From the NCBI GenBank assembly GCA_017542145.1, contig JAFXXQ010000047.1, forward strand, positions 186,001-250,000: a stretch of DNA of 64,000 bases. Reading direction: 5' to 3'. A program made the translations under genes and the position numbers. Source of the DNA: Bacteroidaceae bacterium (GTDB lineage: Bacteria > Bacteroidota > Bacteroidia > Bacteroidales > Bacteroidaceae). The notes beneath the pieces are model-generated. The model saw only the letters and a program-made list of their open reading frames with translations, was not told where the DNA came from and did not search any database. Shown piece after piece: positions 4,584-64,000 of this stretch; the first letter of the stretch is position 1, and every line of letters starts with the position of its first letter.

Positions 4584-4600
4584 CAGGCAAATAAATCCAC

Positions 4601-5012
4601 AGCCCATTGGACTAATTTCTTAGCCCAGTGGGCTGAGTTGACAGCCCACTGGAATAAAATCACAACGTAGTGGGATAATCACACGCTACAAGCGGGATAA
4701 AGTCCGCCTGAACAAAGAGGTTATTTGCTTTCTCATTCCAAGCACCGGTTTATAAACACGGGCCGCGTTTATATAAAAAGGCCTTTCGTCATATTAGAAG
4801 GGCCTTCGGCTAGGTTAGAATGGCCTTTCGCCAAATCAAAAAGGCTTTCTGTTTGGGCAGCTCCGTTCAAGCGGAACATGCCCTCAGGCCAAGGAGGGGC
4901 ATTTGCCAGGCCATTGGGATAAGGTTTTAGCCCATTGGGATAAATTCGCAGCCCACTGGCCCGAGAGGACAGATTAGGGGGATAAGAGATAGGCAGGATA
5001 GAGGAGCAAGAC
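4601..5012. repeat. Degenerate array with 21-bp period, three blocks
   Basis: Three blocks keep an exact 21-bp step. AGCCCAnTGG-type units start at 4601, 4622, 4643 and 4664. GGCCTTTCG-type units start at 4780, 4801, 4822 and 4843. (A)GCCCAnTGGGATAA-type units start at ~4908, 4929, 4950, 4971 and 4992. Sequence is conserved within a block but not between blocks. No credible gene is present: the open frames here are short and have no recognisable product. Confidence 0.75.
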
Positions 5013-5043: not shown

Positions 5044-5380
5044 AAAAAGTGCCAACACCTACCTTTTCCCTCGAAACGAGCTGTTCTATAGGGCGTTAAT
5101 CAAGGTAAGTGTTTCGCAAACACCTACCTAACACCTACCTTTCTCCTACCTGAACGACTGAAAAAGATGGGAAATGACTGAGATTAATAAAGAAGAGATG
5201 ATGGAATGCTGCTTCCGAAGGCCCGAAGACAACGAGAAATCATAGCCGATATCTGAACCGTTGACAACATGTCAGGTGGATGACAGGTAAGTGTTAGGTA
5301 AGTGTTAGGTAGGTGTTTGACAAACACTTACCCATCCTTATAGATTTGTTATCAACATCTTACAAGAAAACAGGTAAGTG
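5044..5380. repeat. Inverted arrays of an 11-bp unit (aggtaagtgtt / aacacctacct)
   Basis: The unit aggtaRgtgtt occurs in tandem at about 5288-5320 and its reverse complement aacacctacct at about 5112-5140, so the arms face each other across a ~130-bp core. Single copies lie at ~5055, ~5104, ~5327 and ~5370. I see no gene in 5012-5420. Confidence 0.7.
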
Positions 5381-5420
5381 TTGGGGGTAAAAAACAAATG
5401 TGCTATCACAAAAAAGATGA

Positions 5421-46648: not shown

Positions 46649-47623
46649 ATGAAAAGAAGGCAGTTTCTGAAAATCGCAGCCGTTACCCCCCTAGCGGCTG
46701 CTGCCTTAGGTTCTTTCGCCCAGAACCCGTCCCAAGAGCCTCTGACCCCGCCTTCCGGAGGTGTGTCTGGAGGCGATTTTCCGCCTATAGACCTCGGACC
46801 GACGGAGTACGTGCCCACAGGGAAAGGCATCCATGTAAGATTTCTCGGAACAGGTGCTGCAGACTGGCAGGGACCTTCCGAGAACGGAGAACTGAGGAGG
46901 CTTTCCAGCGTGCTGCTCGACTGGAAGGTCCTCATCGACTTTACGGATACGGCACTTGATATGCTACCCGAGGGAGTCCATCCCGAAGTCATATTCTACA
47001 CCCATTCCCATAGTGACCACTACCGCCCCAAGGCCGCCTTGCAGTTGGGAATCAAGACCGTCTATCTTGGCGAGACCTGGATTGAAAGAGCCAAGGAAGA
47101 TTTCCAGAAGGCTTCAAGCGAGACAGGTATTCCCGTGCCCGAGATCATACCATTAGCTGTTGGTCAATCCGTCGAATGCGAGGGGCTTACGTTAACCGCC
47201 CTTCCTGCCAACCATGCCACCAGCTATCTGGACGAGCAGACTCTCATCTATCTCATAGAGAAGAATTCGACGAGACTTCTTTATGCTACGGATACAGGAG
47301 GGATTACCGCCATCGCCGCACAGAGGGGAGGATTCGACATGCACGTGAGGGGGGACAAGTTCCTGACTGGAATAATCATGGAGGCAACGATGGGCTTCGG
47401 TCATGAGGAGGATTATCGCATATTCACCCATTCCAGCATCGGTACTGTCCACAAGACGGTCAAGGTGCTCTCCCAGACCCGCAAGTACCTTCCCGTCGAA
47501 GGACAGAAGGTCTATCTGACCCACATGGCGAAGACCCTGCACGGGAGTCAGGCCGAACTGGACAAAGGGCTTCCTGAACCCCTATGTGCCGCATACGACG
47601 GCCTAGAGGTGACCTTCATGTAA
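46649..47623 (+). CDS. Exported MBL-fold metallo-hydrolase
   Basis: 324 residues. A Tat-like N-terminus (MKRRQFLKIAAVTPLAAAALG) is followed by a Pro/Gly-rich linker (PLTPPSGGVSGGDFPP) that looks repeat-derived. The metallo-beta-lactamase core has the zinc motif HSHSDH and later DTGG and TH signatures. It resembles PhnP- or lipoate-ester-type hydrolases more than beta-lactamases, but the substrate is unknown. The surroundings (mannosidase, repeat protein) give no clear lead. Confidence 0.88.
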   Translation: MKRRQFLKIAAVTPLAAAALGSFAQNPSQEPLTPPSGGVSGGDFPPIDLGPTEYVPTGKGIHVRFLGTGAADWQGPSENGELRRLSSVLLDWKVLIDFTDTALDMLPEGVHPEVIFYTHSHSDHYRPKAALQLGIKTVYLGETWIERAKEDFQKASSETGIPVPEIIPLAVGQSVECEGLTLTALPANHATSYLDEQTLIYLIEKNSTRLLYATDTGGITAIAAQRGGFDMHVRGDKFLTGIIMEATMGFGHEEDYRIFTHSSIGTVHKTVKVLSQTRKYLPVEGQKVYLTHMAKTLHGSQAELDKGLPEPLCAAYDGLEVTFM

Positions 47624-47681: not shown

Positions 47682-47807
47682 CCCCAAAGGAAAAGAGTTC
47701 AAAGAAAAAAGTTGTTCGTTTTCTTGCAATTCCATTTTTATAGCACTTTTTTTGCAACGAAGTTCGGAGAAAAAGCAATAAAAAATGGGAACAATATGCC
47801 CTGAACG

Positions 47808-48045
47808 TAGTGCGAATTGTCCGAGAACGCACTACTTCTGCGTCTGAATGTACTGCGTCCGCATATAGGCACTACGCCGTGTTCGTGGCGTAGTGCGCTG
47901 TGCGCTCAGAGCAAAGGGCTGGCGTCACAGCCCAAGCATCTGACGTCATAGCCCCTTGATCTGGCAATGCAGATAAAGCTTCTGACAAAATAGAAGCTGA
48001 TTCTGCGAAAACAGAGGCTGATTCTAACTGCAAAAAAGGTTACAA
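47808..48045. repeat. Degenerate array with 21-bp period
   Basis: ctg(g/a)c-type units start at 47919, 47940, 47961, 47982, 48003 and 48024, exactly 21 bp apart. Upstream, gtagtgc/gcactac units start at 47808, 47829, 47850, then 47869 and 47890. Beyond it, to 48350, I see no gene; ggttacaatctgtaag (48038) and agttacaatttgtaaag (48270) are a related pair. Confidence 0.8.
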
Positions 48046-48349
48046 TCTGTAAGTTCTCAATGCGAAAATCTCCCCAGCGAATGACAACCGACGAACGAAG
48101 CAAGAGCAGAGCCAAACATGTTTGAGCTATGCCTTGCGAGGAGGAGGAAGTCAACTGACAACCCCAAAAGATAACTGCGCAGCAGGCGGCACTTCTATAG
48201 TGGAATCGAGGGTGCAGAGGTTGTCAGCCATTACGCCAAATGAAATAGATGACGGCTCTTTTATCCGTAAAGTTACAATTTGTAAAGCTAACCCCAAAGT
48301 CAACTTTTTACAGAGATAAGAGCGGTCTATATCCTCAAAACGGCTAAAC

Positions 48350-48377: not shown

Positions 48378-48390
48378 CTCTCTCTTTGTG

Positions 48391-48464
48391 TCGGGGTGAC
48401 TGGACTCGAACCAGCGACCTCGCGCCCCCCAGACGTGTGCGCTAACCAACTGCGCTACACCCCG
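48391..48464 (-). tRNA. tRNA-Pro (GGG anticodon)
   Basis: The minus strand folds as a cloverleaf: acceptor CGGGGTG/CACCCCG, D-stem GCGC/GCGC, anticodon loop CTGGGGG (anticodon GGG), T-loop TTCGAGT with stem GCTGG/CCAGT, discriminator A. No CCA is encoded. The anticodon stem CACGT/GCGCG contains one A-C mismatch at 28-42 and two G-T/G-U type pairs overall. Identity Pro follows from the anticodon. Confidence 0.92.
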
Positions 48465-48619: not shown

Positions 48620-49972
48620 ATGATTCGACTGAGCATAGCCAATAGAGCCCTTGGATTGCGAGGGAGCATCGTATTGCCGGCATCCAAAAGCATCAGCAAC
48701 CGTGCCCTGCTGCTGAGCCAGCTATGTGTCGACGGCCCTGCCCATCTGAGCAATCTGGCTGACTGCGAGGATACGAGGGTGATGCGGGAAGCCTTGTTTG
48801 GGTCAACAGGTCAACAGGTCAACAGGTCAACAAGTCGCTTTGTGGACCGAACCCAGCGTGTTGACTCTTTGACCTGTGGACTTGTTGACCCCCAAATCAT
48901 CAACGTCCAAGGGGCAGGAACGGCGATGCGGTTCCTGACAGCTTACTTCGCTCAATGCAAAGGAGCGAATGTCGTCCTCACGGGTATTGAGCGGATGAAG
49001 CAGCGTCCTATTGCTCCACTCGTTGACGCGCTTCGGCAACTCGGCGCAGACATCAGCTATCAAGAAAAGGAAGGCTTCCCTCCGCTCGTCATTCGGGGGC
49101 GTCGGCTACAGGGAGAGAGCATTTCGATTGACGGTAGCCTCAGCTCACAGTATGTTTCGGCCTTACTGATGATTGCCCCTTTGGCTGGCGCACGTAGGCT
49201 GACGCTGACGGGGCGTATTGTCTCGCGGCCTTACATCGAAATGACGCGTGCGCTGATGGCCCGCTTCGGAGTACAAACCACATGGGAAGACGAACATACG
49301 CTACTCATCCCCTCCTCCACCTATCACGCCAAGCCCCTTGCCATTGAAGGCGACTGGAGTGCTGCCTCCTACTGGTTGGCTTTTGAAGCTCTTGCACGGC
49401 AGCAAGGTATCTCCTACGACATTACGCTCAACGGCCTCACTACGCCCTCCCTGCAAGGGGACAGCGTTTGTGCGGAGTTTTTTAATGAGTCAACAAGTCA
49501 ACAAGTCAACAAGTCAACAAGTCGCTTTGCAGACCGCACCCAGCGTGTTGACTCGTTGACTTGTGGACTTGTTGACCCCATAATAGTTGACTTTACCGAC
49601 TGCCCCGATTTGGTGCAGACGATGGCTGTAGCGTATTGTCTTTTGGGCAAGCAGTTTGTCTTTACGGGAACAGAATCGCTGCGCATCAAAGAAACGGACC
49701 GCATTGCAGCATTGATTACGGAATTAGGAAAGCTTGGGTATGAACTGCACTACGAAGATGGAACGCTGAAGTGGGATGGGAACAGAAGTCCACAAGTTCC
49801 CCATAGCATTGCCACTTACAACGACCATCGGATGGCTATGGCATTCGCGCTTGCGGCTATGACGCACGATTCTGTTCTGATAGAAAGCCCCGAAGTTGTC
49901 AGCAAATCCTATCCAAGTTTCTGGGACGACCTCAGCAGAGTAGGATTCAAGGTGGAAGAAATAAAGGGTTAA
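48620..49972 (+). CDS. aroA: 3-phosphoshikimate 1-carboxyvinyltransferase with two repeat insertions
   Basis: 450 residues. It makes EPSP from shikimate-3-phosphate and PEP in the aromatic amino-acid pathway. Core motifs: LPASKSISNRALLLSQL (N-terminal), GAGTAMRFLTAY, SSQYVSALLM, and RIKETDRIAAL near the C-terminus. Two inserts of ~30 residues are in frame: residues ~60-92 (STGQQVNRSTSRF...RVDSLTCGLVD) and ~289-320 (STSQQVNKSTSRF...RVDSLTCGLVD). They fall at loops between conserved blocks, and the reading frame and catalytic residues are intact. Without them the length matches the ~410-residue family size. Confidence 0.95.
   Translation: MIRLSIANRALGLRGSIVLPASKSISNRALLLSQLCVDGPAHLSNLADCEDTRVMREALFGSTGQQVNRSTSRFVDRTQRVDSLTCGLVDPQIINVQGAGTAMRFLTAYFAQCKGANVVLTGIERMKQRPIAPLVDALRQLGADISYQEKEGFPPLVIRGRRLQGESISIDGSLSSQYVSALLMIAPLAGARRLTLTGRIVSRPYIEMTRALMARFGVQTTWEDEHTLLIPSSTYHAKPLAIEGDWSAASYWLAFEALARQQGISYDITLNGLTTPSLQGDSVCAEFFNESTSQQVNKSTSRFADRTQRVDSLTCGLVDPIIVDFTDCPDLVQTMAVAYCLLGKQFVFTGTESLRIKETDRIAALITELGKLGYELHYEDGTLKWDGNRSPQVPHSIATYNDHRMAMAFALAAMTHDSVLIESPEVVSKSYPSFWDDLSRVGFKVEEIKG
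48801..48891 (+). repeat. In-frame palindromic element, aroA copy 1
   Basis: Four ggtcaaca units, the core tcgctttgtggaccgaac then ccagcgtg, and an inverted arm of ttgactct/ttgacctg/cttgttgac units. Confidence 0.9.
49488..49577 (+). repeat. In-frame palindromic element, aroA copy 2
   Basis: Four agtcaaca units, the core tcgctttgcagaccgcac then ccagcgtg, and an inverted arm. The arms pair over ~30 bp with two mismatches. It encodes nearly the same peptide as copy 1. Confidence 0.9.
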
Positions 49973-55497: not shown

Positions 55498-55525
55498 TGC
55501 CCGGTCAGCCTTCCAAGCCCGAATT

Positions 55526-55582
55526 CCAAGTGCTTGGATTTGCAGTTTCAAGCGCTTGGAATGTAACTTTCAAGCGCTTGAA
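55526..55582. repeat. Palindromic CAAGYGCTTG units at 22-bp spacing
   Basis: Units start at 55527, 55549 and 55571. Each is a near-perfect decamer palindrome, the last two flanked by TTT upstream. Confidence 0.75.
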
Positions 55583-55698
55583 ACTCATTTTTACTCCTAC
55601 GTTTTTTCAACTTATTCCTTAAACCGCCAGGCCTGCATGCGTGTTTTTTTCAAGATAAGCCGCACTTTTCCTGCGAAAACACCCCAATTCAATCCTTT

Positions 55699-61630: not shown

Positions 61631-61684
61631 GAAAAAAGCTGATTAAAACACAAGACTGACGTAAAGGGCCCTCAATAATAGAAT

Positions 61685-61747
61685 AGGCGAATAATTTCTC
61701 AGAGCAGGCAAATAAAAAAATAGCGTAGGCGAATAAAAAGACAGGAT
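61685..61747. repeat. Array with 21-bp period downstream of feoB
   Basis: aggcgaataa-type units start at 61685, 61706 and 61727, exactly 21 bp apart, with weaker units on both sides. It lies between the feoB stop and the truncated TonB gene. Confidence 0.7.
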
Positions 61748-61760
61748 AAGCTGTTGGCTG

Positions 61761-64000
61761 CTATAGGAACCATCCGGCAACGAGATAGCCAAGGAAGGCA
61801 ATTATCCAAGCAACGGCACACTGGAAGCCGACAACGAATAACGCCCAGCGGGGGCCAAGCTCACGCCGAATGCTGGCAATGGCTGCTACACAGGGGGTAT
61901 AGAGCAGGCAGAACAACAGCATCGGGATGGCCGTTAATGCCGTCAGAGAAGCCGTCACATTCAGCACCTCCATCGTTGCCACCACGCTCTCCTTGGCCAG
62001 GAAGCCGCTGATGAGGGAGGTGACGACGCGCCAGTCGTCCAGCCCGAGGGGACGAAACAAGGGAGCAACGATGCCTGCCACCCATGCCAGCATGCTGCCC
62101 TCGCCATTCTCCACCAGACGCAGGCGGAAGTCGAACGACTGGAGAAACCAGATGACGATGGTAGCCAGGAAGATAACCGTGAACGCGCGCTGGCAGAAGT
62201 CCTTCGTCTTATCCCACAGCAGATGGCCCACGTTCCTCAGTCGTGGCAGACGGTAGTTGGGCAGCTCCATGACAAACGGCGCAGCCTCGCCCCTGCCCCC
62301 AAGACGCTTGCCGCATAGCGCTACCACGATGCCCACAAGGATGCTCAGCAGATAGAGCCCGATAAGCACCAAACCGCCCTTACCCGGGAAGAAGGCTGCC
62401 GTAAAGAAGCCGTAAATGGGAATCTTCGCCGAGCAGCTCATGAATGGCGTCAAAAGAATGGTTTTCAGACGATCGCGTGCTGAAGGAAGCGTTCTCGTGG
62501 CCATGATGGCTGGCACGGAGCAGCCGAAGCCGATAAGCAAAGGCACGATGGAACGGCCCGAGAGCCCCAGCCGGCGCAGCAGCTTGTCCGTCACGAAAGC
62601 AATACGGGCCATATAGCCGCTATCCTCGATAATACTGAGGAAGAAGAACAGTATAATAATAATAGGTATGAAGCTGAGCACGCTACCCACGCCGCCGAAG
62701 ATGGCATCGGTGACGAGCGACACGACAGCAGGACTGACGTCGGCAGCCTCAAGCCCCCGTTGGCAGAGGGTGCCAAGGGCGCTGATACCGCTGTCGAGCC
62801 AGCCTTGCAAGGGAGCGCCCAGCACGTCGATGCTGAGCCATATGACAAGGCACATGACGGCCACAAAAATGGGAAGCGCCGTCCAACGCCCCGTGAGGAT
62901 ACCGTCTATACGCTTGCTACGACGATACTCGATGCTTTCGCGTGGCTTGACTACCGTCTCGCGGCACAGCCTATGGATGAACGCGAAGCGCATGTCGGCC
63001 ATGGCTGCAGCACGGTCGAGGCCGCGTTCCTCCTCCATCTGAAGGACGATGTGCTCCACCATCTCACGCTCGTTCTGCGTCAGCTGCAGGGCATTTGCCA
63101 CGGCCTCGTCACCCTCCACGAGTTTTCCAGCAGCAAAGCGCAAGGGCATCCCGGCACGCTCAGCGTGGTCCTCGATGAGGTGCATGATGCTGTGGAGGCA
63201 GCGATGTACGGCTCCGCCATGATCGTCCTTGCTGCAGAAGTCCTGCCGTGCAGGTACCTCCTGATAGTACGCCACGTGGACGGCATGTTCCACAAGCTCG
63301 TCGATGCCCTCGTTCCTGGCAGCGGAGATAGCCACGACGGGGATGCCGAGGATGCGCTCCATGTCGTTCAGGCGGATGGAGCCTCCGTTGCCCGTCACTT
63401 CATCCATCATGTTCAAGGCCAATACCATCGGAACGCCCAACTCCATGAGCTGTACCGTCAGATAGAGGTGTCGCTCGATGTTCGAGGCATCAACGACGTT
63501 GATAAGGCCATGAGGCTTTTCTTTGAGGATGAAATCTCGGCTGACAATCTCCTCAGCGGTATAGGCGGAAAGGCTGTAGATGCCAGGGAGGTCGATGACG
63601 TGAGCGGAGGTCCTCTCGTCGCCCTTGCGAGAGAAAAAAGCGTCCTTGATCTGTCCTTCCTTACGGTCGACGGTGACGCCGGGGAAGTTGCCCACGTGCT
63701 GGTTCGAGCCCGTGAGCTGGTTGAAGAGCGTGGTCTTGCCGCTGTTCTGCTGCCCCGCCAGGGCGAAGGTGAGCGTGGTACCCTTGGGCAGCGGACGCTC
63801 CGTGTCGTGGTTGTGGTATTTGCCCGCTTCACCAATACCGGGGTGGGCATTATGATCATGGAGCGACTCTATGTAAGGACGGTCATCAGAAACTGCGACG
63901 CGGCTTGTAGGCGTAACACGTTCATACGTAGCCGTCTGCAGGGGTTCAACTTCTATCTTTTCAGCATCTGCCAGACGGAGCGTCAGCACATAGCCCTGCA
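61761..64000 (-). CDS. feoB: Ferrous iron transporter FeoAB fusion, 5' end outside window
   Basis: At least 745 residues; the frame is open to the window edge. The visible start (QGYVLTLRLADAEKIEVEP) looks like the last strand of a FeoA SH3-like domain, so this is the FeoA-FeoB fusion common in Bacteroidales. The G-protein domain has G1 GQQNSGKTTLFNQL, G2 GVTVDRKEG, G3 DLPGIYSL, G4 NMMD and G5 SAARNEG. The transport part has two Gate motifs and ~8-10 helices (LLIGFGCSVPAIMATRTL, TPFMSCSAKIPIYGF). It imports Fe(II) across the inner membrane. Confidence 0.95.
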   Translation of the reverse strand, partial: QGYVLTLRLADAEKIEVEPLQTATYERVTPTSRVAVSDDRPYIESLHDHNAHPGIGEAGKYHNHDTERPLPKGTTLTFALAGQQNSGKTTLFNQLTGSNQHVGNFPGVTVDRKEGQIKDAFFSRKGDERTSAHVIDLPGIYSLSAYTAEEIVSRDFILKEKPHGLINVVDASNIERHLYLTVQLMELGVPMVLALNMMDEVTGNGGSIRLNDMERILGIPVVAISAARNEGIDELVEHAVHVAYYQEVPARQDFCSKDDHGGAVHRCLHSIMHLIEDHAERAGMPLRFAAGKLVEGDEAVANALQLTQNEREMVEHIVLQMEEERGLDRAAAMADMRFAFIHRLCRETVVKPRESIEYRRSKRIDGILTGRWTALPIFVAVMCLVIWLSIDVLGAPLQGWLDSGISALGTLCQRGLEAADVSPAVVSLVTDAIFGGVGSVLSFIPIIIILFFFLSIIEDSGYMARIAFVTDKLLRRLGLSGRSIVPLLIGFGCSVPAIMATRTLPSARDRLKTILLTPFMSCSAKIPIYGFFTAAFFPGKGGLVLIGLYLLSILVGIVVALCGKRLGGRGEAAPFVMELPNYRLPRLRNVGHLLWDKTKDFCQRAFTVIFLATIVIWFLQSFDFRLRLVENGEGSMLAWVAGIVAPLFRPLGLDDWRVVTSLISGFLAKESVVATMEVLNVTASLTALTAIPMLLFCLLYTPCVAAIASIRRELGPRWALFVVGFQCAVAWIIAFLGYLVAGWFL

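Follow-up and report, generated by a model that had tools for sequence, protein, structure and literature searches.

Short intergenic arrays of dyad-symmetric 21-bp units in a Bacteroidaceae lineage

We analysed a stretch of 64,000 nucleotides from the genome of a Bacteroidaceae bacterium, referred to here as the window. The gap between a 324-aa open reading frame and a tRNA gene holds an array of 21-bp units, and further arrays lie elsewhere in the window. The features are as follows, with no strand assigned to the arrays.

46649..47623, plus strand: open reading frame of 324 aa, left neighbour; the array starts about 180 bp beyond its stop.
47802..48035: 21-bp array of eleven units on a single grid.
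From 47802: left part of this array, five units whose cores are ACGTAGTGC/GCACTACG and whose YAG/CTR ends have decayed.
47907..48032: six intact YAG-N9-CTR-N6 units, starting at 47907, 47928, 47949, 47970, 47991 and 48012.
48390..48464, minus strand: tRNA-Pro(GGG), right neighbour, by Rfam match.
4600..4704: first array of the window, with units CAG CCCATTGGA CTA, TAG CCCAGTGGG CTG and CAG CCCACTGGA ATA, and more 21-bp units to about 4990.
55515..55590 (limits approximate): 22-bp array of TTCCAAG/CAAGCGCTTG palindromes; the same gap in the sister genome G003 holds an unrelated 21-bp array.
61679..61762: third array, YAG-N9-ATA-N6 units at 61679, 61700, 61721 and 61742, the last ending in TTG.

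The left neighbour looks, by eye, like a metallo-beta-lactamase-fold protein. The tRNA was the sole match of an Rfam search of the window, and has its own hairpin-T terminator at 48380-48359, outside the array. The array itself extends from 47802 to about 48035 as eleven units on one 21-bp grid. An earlier sequence-only reading had described six units 21 bp apart, and their starts confirm it: CTG lies at 47919, 47940, 47961, 47982 and 48003, and CTA at 48024, at a spacing of exactly 21 bp. On the grid 47907-48032 all six units are intact as YAG-N9-CTR with a free N6 linker, and the unit at 48033 is decayed. The same reading had seen 21-bp steps in the GTAGTGC/GCACTAC words to the left. Counted from their first bases (47807, 47829, 47850, 47869 and 47890) the steps are in fact 22, 21, 19 and 21, but read as dyad cores the words do fall on the same 21-bp grid from 47802. 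These five left units keep a dyad core akin to CGTAGTGCG and have lost most of their ends. Lag-21 self-match is 0.562 in 47919-48044 (z 7.4 versus shuffles) and 0.470 in 47808-48045; neither value was reached by any of 1000 dinucleotide shuffles, even when the test also allowed the best of all 65 lags (5 to 69). Because the form YAG-N9-CTR reads the same on both strands, a dyad axis is met every 10.5 bp.

A common layout, YAG-N9-(CTR or ATA)-N6, underlies all three arrays of the window, with CTR relaxed to ATA in places. The second array had been called unrelated in sequence to the first; this is right only in part, since the first and third arrays keep to its grammar, either unchanged or slightly relaxed. 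Third-array units read TAG-AATAGGCGA-ATA, CAG-AGCAGGCAA-ATA and TAG-CGTAGGCGA-ATA. The lag-21 signal of the first array has p below 0.001 over all lags. That of the third is weaker (p 0.037 over all lags), and a sister genome has a longer counterpart; this array, noticed earlier at 61685/61706/61727, is thus real but weaker, with starts a few bases off and the same steps. The idea that the three arrays are of one kind is supported by the common layout and by a blind motif fit. This cyclic fit, with free phase and strand, was made on 41 arrays gathered by lag 21 alone, part of them from loci fetched for matching the window array, and it recovers CTR-N6-YAG. Its held-out log-likelihood was 610; over 10 runs each, letter-shuffled controls gave 144-156 and controls with the columns of every array permuted gave 255-294.

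Other repeats share the neighbourhood. A different repeat, about 60-66 bp long and dispersed through the genome, lies just right of the array at window 48085-48150; three of its other copies follow one another at C36:15951-16155, spaced by about 71 bp. Within the aroA frame, 8-bp tandem repeats (GGTCAACA / AGTCAACA) at 48801-48836 and 49488-49576 encode near-identical in-frame inserts at two places; the relative L038 has neither and L039 only the first. Many gaps of the window carry 7-bp or 8-bp intergenic tandem repeats (TAGTTCA, GTCAACA, ACCCTGTT, TACGGAAT), which are very frequent genome-wide and distinct from the 21-bp arrays. The 11-bp repeats AGGTAAGTGTT / AACACCTACCT occur in both orientations at 5119-5390, with a related set in sister G016 (L201). 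Several more families of dispersed intergenic repeats, at L099 9898-9949, 12176-12326 and 15980-16140, are present in many copies in four sister genomes.

Across the 3.14 Mb of its own genome the two-unit pattern was found at 106 sites, versus 24 for the pattern read backward. Among the matches listed for the window array in this genome there are nine others, all of them other 21-bp arrays. A grammar-blind periodicity scan over lags 12 to 40 gave, at z 5.5 or more, 26 places for lag 21 and 3 each for lag 22 and for the other 27 lags combined. The scan covered 444 kb of stretches, 46.5 kb of it intergenic by our own gene calls (greedy longest-ORF with a minimum of 100 aa, in part 80 aa, and no trained caller), and the resulting array density may be high because contig C36 was sampled for bearing matches. 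A heptad origin (21 = 3 x 7) was ruled out: in 25 own-genome arrays the match at lags 7 and 14 was 0.24 and 0.25, versus 0.25 at other lags. Coding repeats were dismissed by reasoning: 22 does not divide by three, and TAG or TGA stops lie inside units.

The pattern is abundant in only part of the genus. Five of its 19 genomes (the own genome G000, and G003, G011, G016 and G017) are rich in the two-unit pattern, with 82-131 sites, and the other 14 are poor, with 1-9. The backward control is itself raised in the rich genomes (18-24 sites versus 5-17 in the others), which is a point against the reading that we prefer below. A longer form of the pattern gave 23+32 in G000, 29+22 in G003 and 20+38 in G016; none of the 148 further genomes of this family-wide draw, which did not include G011 or G017, exceeded 2. 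Distribution of the period is wider than that of the YAG/CTR grammar. Comparison of lags 21/22 with all 27 other lags gave 15 versus 4 places in four sisters and 9 versus 5 in the remaining genus (z 5.5 or more), 3 versus 1 in the family's other genera (the single place being at lag 23), 7 versus 0 in the named relatives L040-L048 and 1 versus 2 in Prevotella/Marseilla loci. Intergenic DNA of the order's other families, 26 kb in all, had no periodic place at any lag (z 5.5 or more). The period is 21 bp in the own clade and mostly 22 in relatives, among which the array letters differ (GTCACCGCGGTGAC, TTTCATYGCRATGAAA, CACATATGTG, CGACCTAGGTCG, GGGTATACCC, TTCCAnnnnnTGGAA) but usually retain dyad symmetry. 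A strong 23-bp periodic place (z 10.8) lies near 18063 of L138, from another genus of the family; its period is the same as that of the BrickBuilt element discussed below.

We examined where the arrays lie relative to genes. Convergent gaps hold 0.72 arrays per kb, tandem gaps 0.49 and divergent gaps 0.26 (convergent versus divergent, p 0.014). By count, 21 of 72 arrays are in convergent, 36 in tandem and 8 in divergent gaps, and for the remaining 7 a single neighbour was called. Of the 36 arrays in tandem gaps, 21 are nearer the upstream gene's end. Arrays thus favour sites beside gene 3-prime ends, as a tendency and not as a rule. The earlier claim that they lie in 3' intergenic space survives as this bias, but not as a rule: the eight arrays in divergent gaps, among the 65 with two called neighbours, are also a point against our preferred reading.

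Symmetry was tested by column permutation on 61 arrays taken automatically, without picking. Dyad symmetry reached p<=0.05 in 30 of them and p<=0.01 in 22, whereas the mirror-symmetry control on the same arrays gave 3 and 0. At p<=0.01 the signal was weaker among 21-bp arrays (7/36) than among 22-bp arrays (15/25). Half-sites are of 32 kinds in 58 elements, with 7 homotypic pairs where 4.2 are expected, a variety not easily explained by a single protein whose specificity is fixed beyond YAG/CTR. Both this variety and the weaker symmetry of 21-bp arrays speak against the reading that we prefer.

Arrays mostly persist in orthologous gaps, although their units are gained, lost or replaced. When gaps with an array in the own genome were set against their counterparts in one or two relatives, 11 of 12 had an array in both, and the L102 7343 gap, with no array in G016, was the sole exception. 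Three gaps were left out of the 12: L096 5154, which offered a single anchor, L097 14368, where the sequence compared had no joint anchors, and window 54951, with short heptad-like repeats. The arrays at L102 17451, L104 4779 and L096 15796 are nearly letter-identical in at least one sister, and the last has exactly one extra 21-bp unit in G016. At L104 14154 the unit cores differ throughout, being CGCACTACG-like in sisters and CCCAGTGGG-like in the own genome, and G016 has more whole units than the own genome. Indels of whole 21-bp units comprise one more unit in G016 at one locus and more units in G003 and G016 at another. At L099 (1684-1849) unit identities are kept between species, and the same T/C difference occurs in 3 of 3 units. 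Arrays with unrelated letters occupy the same gap at window 55.5 kb, compared with G003, and at L097 2684. The counterpart of the window array in the close relative L038 is a 21-bp array with another unit set and one shared type, TAGAAGCTGATTCTR, in a gap of 2.45 kb that holds further sequence besides the array. Left of the tRNA, G003 has other sequence, with no such array in the 1.6 kb inspected. The sequence-only reading had staked its case on a period that does not vary freely between strains; compared here between species, the period stays at 21 or 22 while the units change.

Together our data show that the window array is one member of a lineage-wide class of short intergenic arrays that have in common a period, dyad symmetry, a grammar and turnover of units in 21-bp steps. 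We suspect, tentatively and at somewhat less than an even chance, that the arrays are double-stranded-DNA sites for a candidate dimeric protein on one face of the helix, BIME-like and with minisatellite-like evolution. Small dyad-symmetric elements would then recur every two turns of B-DNA, with linkers free, and a putative dimeric DNA-binding protein would dock on each YAG-N9-CTR element. Because the elements lie two turns apart, all dimers would sit on the same side and be able to touch, and over roughly 60-250 bp they may build up a cooperative nucleoprotein patch. Such a patch would probably serve as an extragenic boundary mark, commoner beside the 3-prime ends of genes, which might absorb supercoils or separate transcription units in the manner proposed for BIMEs. 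Units would come and go as in a minisatellite, with the helical phase held by selection. If selection acts on the phase, the arrays mark a layer of chromosome organisation or of transcription-unit separation that is new for a major group of gut bacteria. They would moreover be an uncommon natural example of fixed spacing combined with free sequence, from which rules of cooperative phased binding could be read in genomes.

Alternatively, the arrays may be neutral intergenic minisatellites, made by slippage duplications with a lineage-specific copying step near two turns, and shaped by drift and homogenisation without function. This is a serious possibility, although we lean against it. Whole-unit indels between species, arrays replaced or lost between close species, the concerted core change in one array and the known 23-nt intergenic minisatellite of Porphyromonas, as presented in PMC4596501, all agree with it, and gain and loss of units and likeness within arrays would be equally expected from it. 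However, YAG and CTR are conserved while linkers vary, dyad symmetry prevails over mirror symmetry (22 versus 0 of 61), unrelated-unit arrays occupy the same gap in two cases, and convergent gaps are favoured over divergent ones. Neutral arrays would point to a copying process that prefers a step of two helical turns, itself new. We also consider, as an unlikely variant, that chromosome-wide in this family only the two-turn dyad placing at particular gene boundaries is conserved and the letters are rewritten per lineage and array, with the elements read by a protein that responds to phase and dyads more than to letters, or written by a two-turn copying machinery.

An RNA-level element, in which rows of transcribed hairpins end transcription or guard mRNA 3-prime ends, appears improbable. 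The plus strand of region 47800-48050 folds at -100.2 kcal/mol (z -6.3, 0/200 shuffles as low), 22-bp arrays fold with a mean z of -5.0 in a set of 21 hand-picked by eye, some families have T-runs between stems (TCCCAnnnnnTGGGA), and the gene 3-prime bias would suit such a role. One terminator-like match lies inside the array (47933-47916, minus strand), among 3 in the region versus 1.0 +/- 1.2 in shuffles. A good fold is, however, as expected from palindromes in a row; 21-bp arrays fold modestly (mean z -1.8), the halves of most elements are unlike, and hairpins need no exact helical period. Furthermore, RNA hairpins should give an excess of G-T among paired-arm mismatches, whereas the mRNA-sense strand has 41 G-T and 39 A-C and so no wobble bias. 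This balance, and the neighbouring tRNA's own terminator outside the array, lead us to infer that the arrays act as double-stranded DNA.

It is very unlikely that the arrays form the interior of a transposase-driven mobile repeat of the MITE or REP type. Array chunks are found again at other loci, and BrickBuilt is a case of such a kind as described in PMC4596501. However, 82 flanks of 41 arrays have no common leader, tail or terminal repeat: their comparison gave 21 matching pairs, many of them same-locus overlaps and the rest scattered and short, with no common end. The own genome lacks the Y1 transposase (PF01797), which occurs in 1 of the 5 array-rich genomes versus 6 of the 14 others. Membership of REP/RAYT was ruled out on its lack in the own genome and in four of the five array-rich genomes, and that of a BrickBuilt-type MITE on the lack of shared flanks and of a single 23-nt unit family. 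A guide-like or CRISPR-like memory array, the first of which the sequence-only reading had raised, shares only the regular spacing and was rejected as next to inconceivable: the units are near-copies with no unique spacers, there was no match in 50,697 phage or 72,556 plasmid records, and the own-genome matches listed lead to other arrays.

Several known systems resemble the arrays in part. Plasmid iterons are direct repeats of about two helical turns that set protein sites on one face; the likeness lies in the two-turn repeats, but iterons belong to replication origins and are accompanied by a Rep gene, whereas the arrays are scattered over the chromosome. REP/BIME elements bind gyrase, IHF or Pol I. 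The nearest known element is BrickBuilt of Porphyromonas gingivalis, a species of the same order as the source bacterium. As described in PMC4596501, BrickBuilt is a 23-nt intergenic minisatellite/MITE of 19 copies with a leader, a tail and terminal inverted repeats, whose unit number differs between strains and whose unit has conserved and variable sites. Likewise, the arrays are intergenic, with spacerless tandem units of about two helical turns and conserved and variable sites, and in the manner of a minisatellite or VNTR their unit number varies between species in whole units. In our searches of open-access literature, we recognised no description of such arrays beyond BrickBuilt. BrickBuilt is one sequence family with a leader, tail and terminal inverted repeats, whereas the arrays comprise many families of one period (21 or 22), in higher number and without shared flanks (82 flanks, 41 arrays).

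In proposed work the REP/BIME elements of enterobacteria and the GTAG/CGTC palindromes are nearest. PMC3733652 describes REPs as stem-loops of 20-40 bp with a GTAG or CGTC tag, often in dimers at loose distances, and gives supercoiling, termination and mRNA stability as hypothesised roles of REP/BIME. The arrays are also extragenic, palindromic and present in many copies, but they are exactly phased and built of shorter elements, and no Y1 transposase was found in their own genome. We regard them as a variant of intergenic repeat arrays that stands outside both the BrickBuilt and the REP/BIME families.
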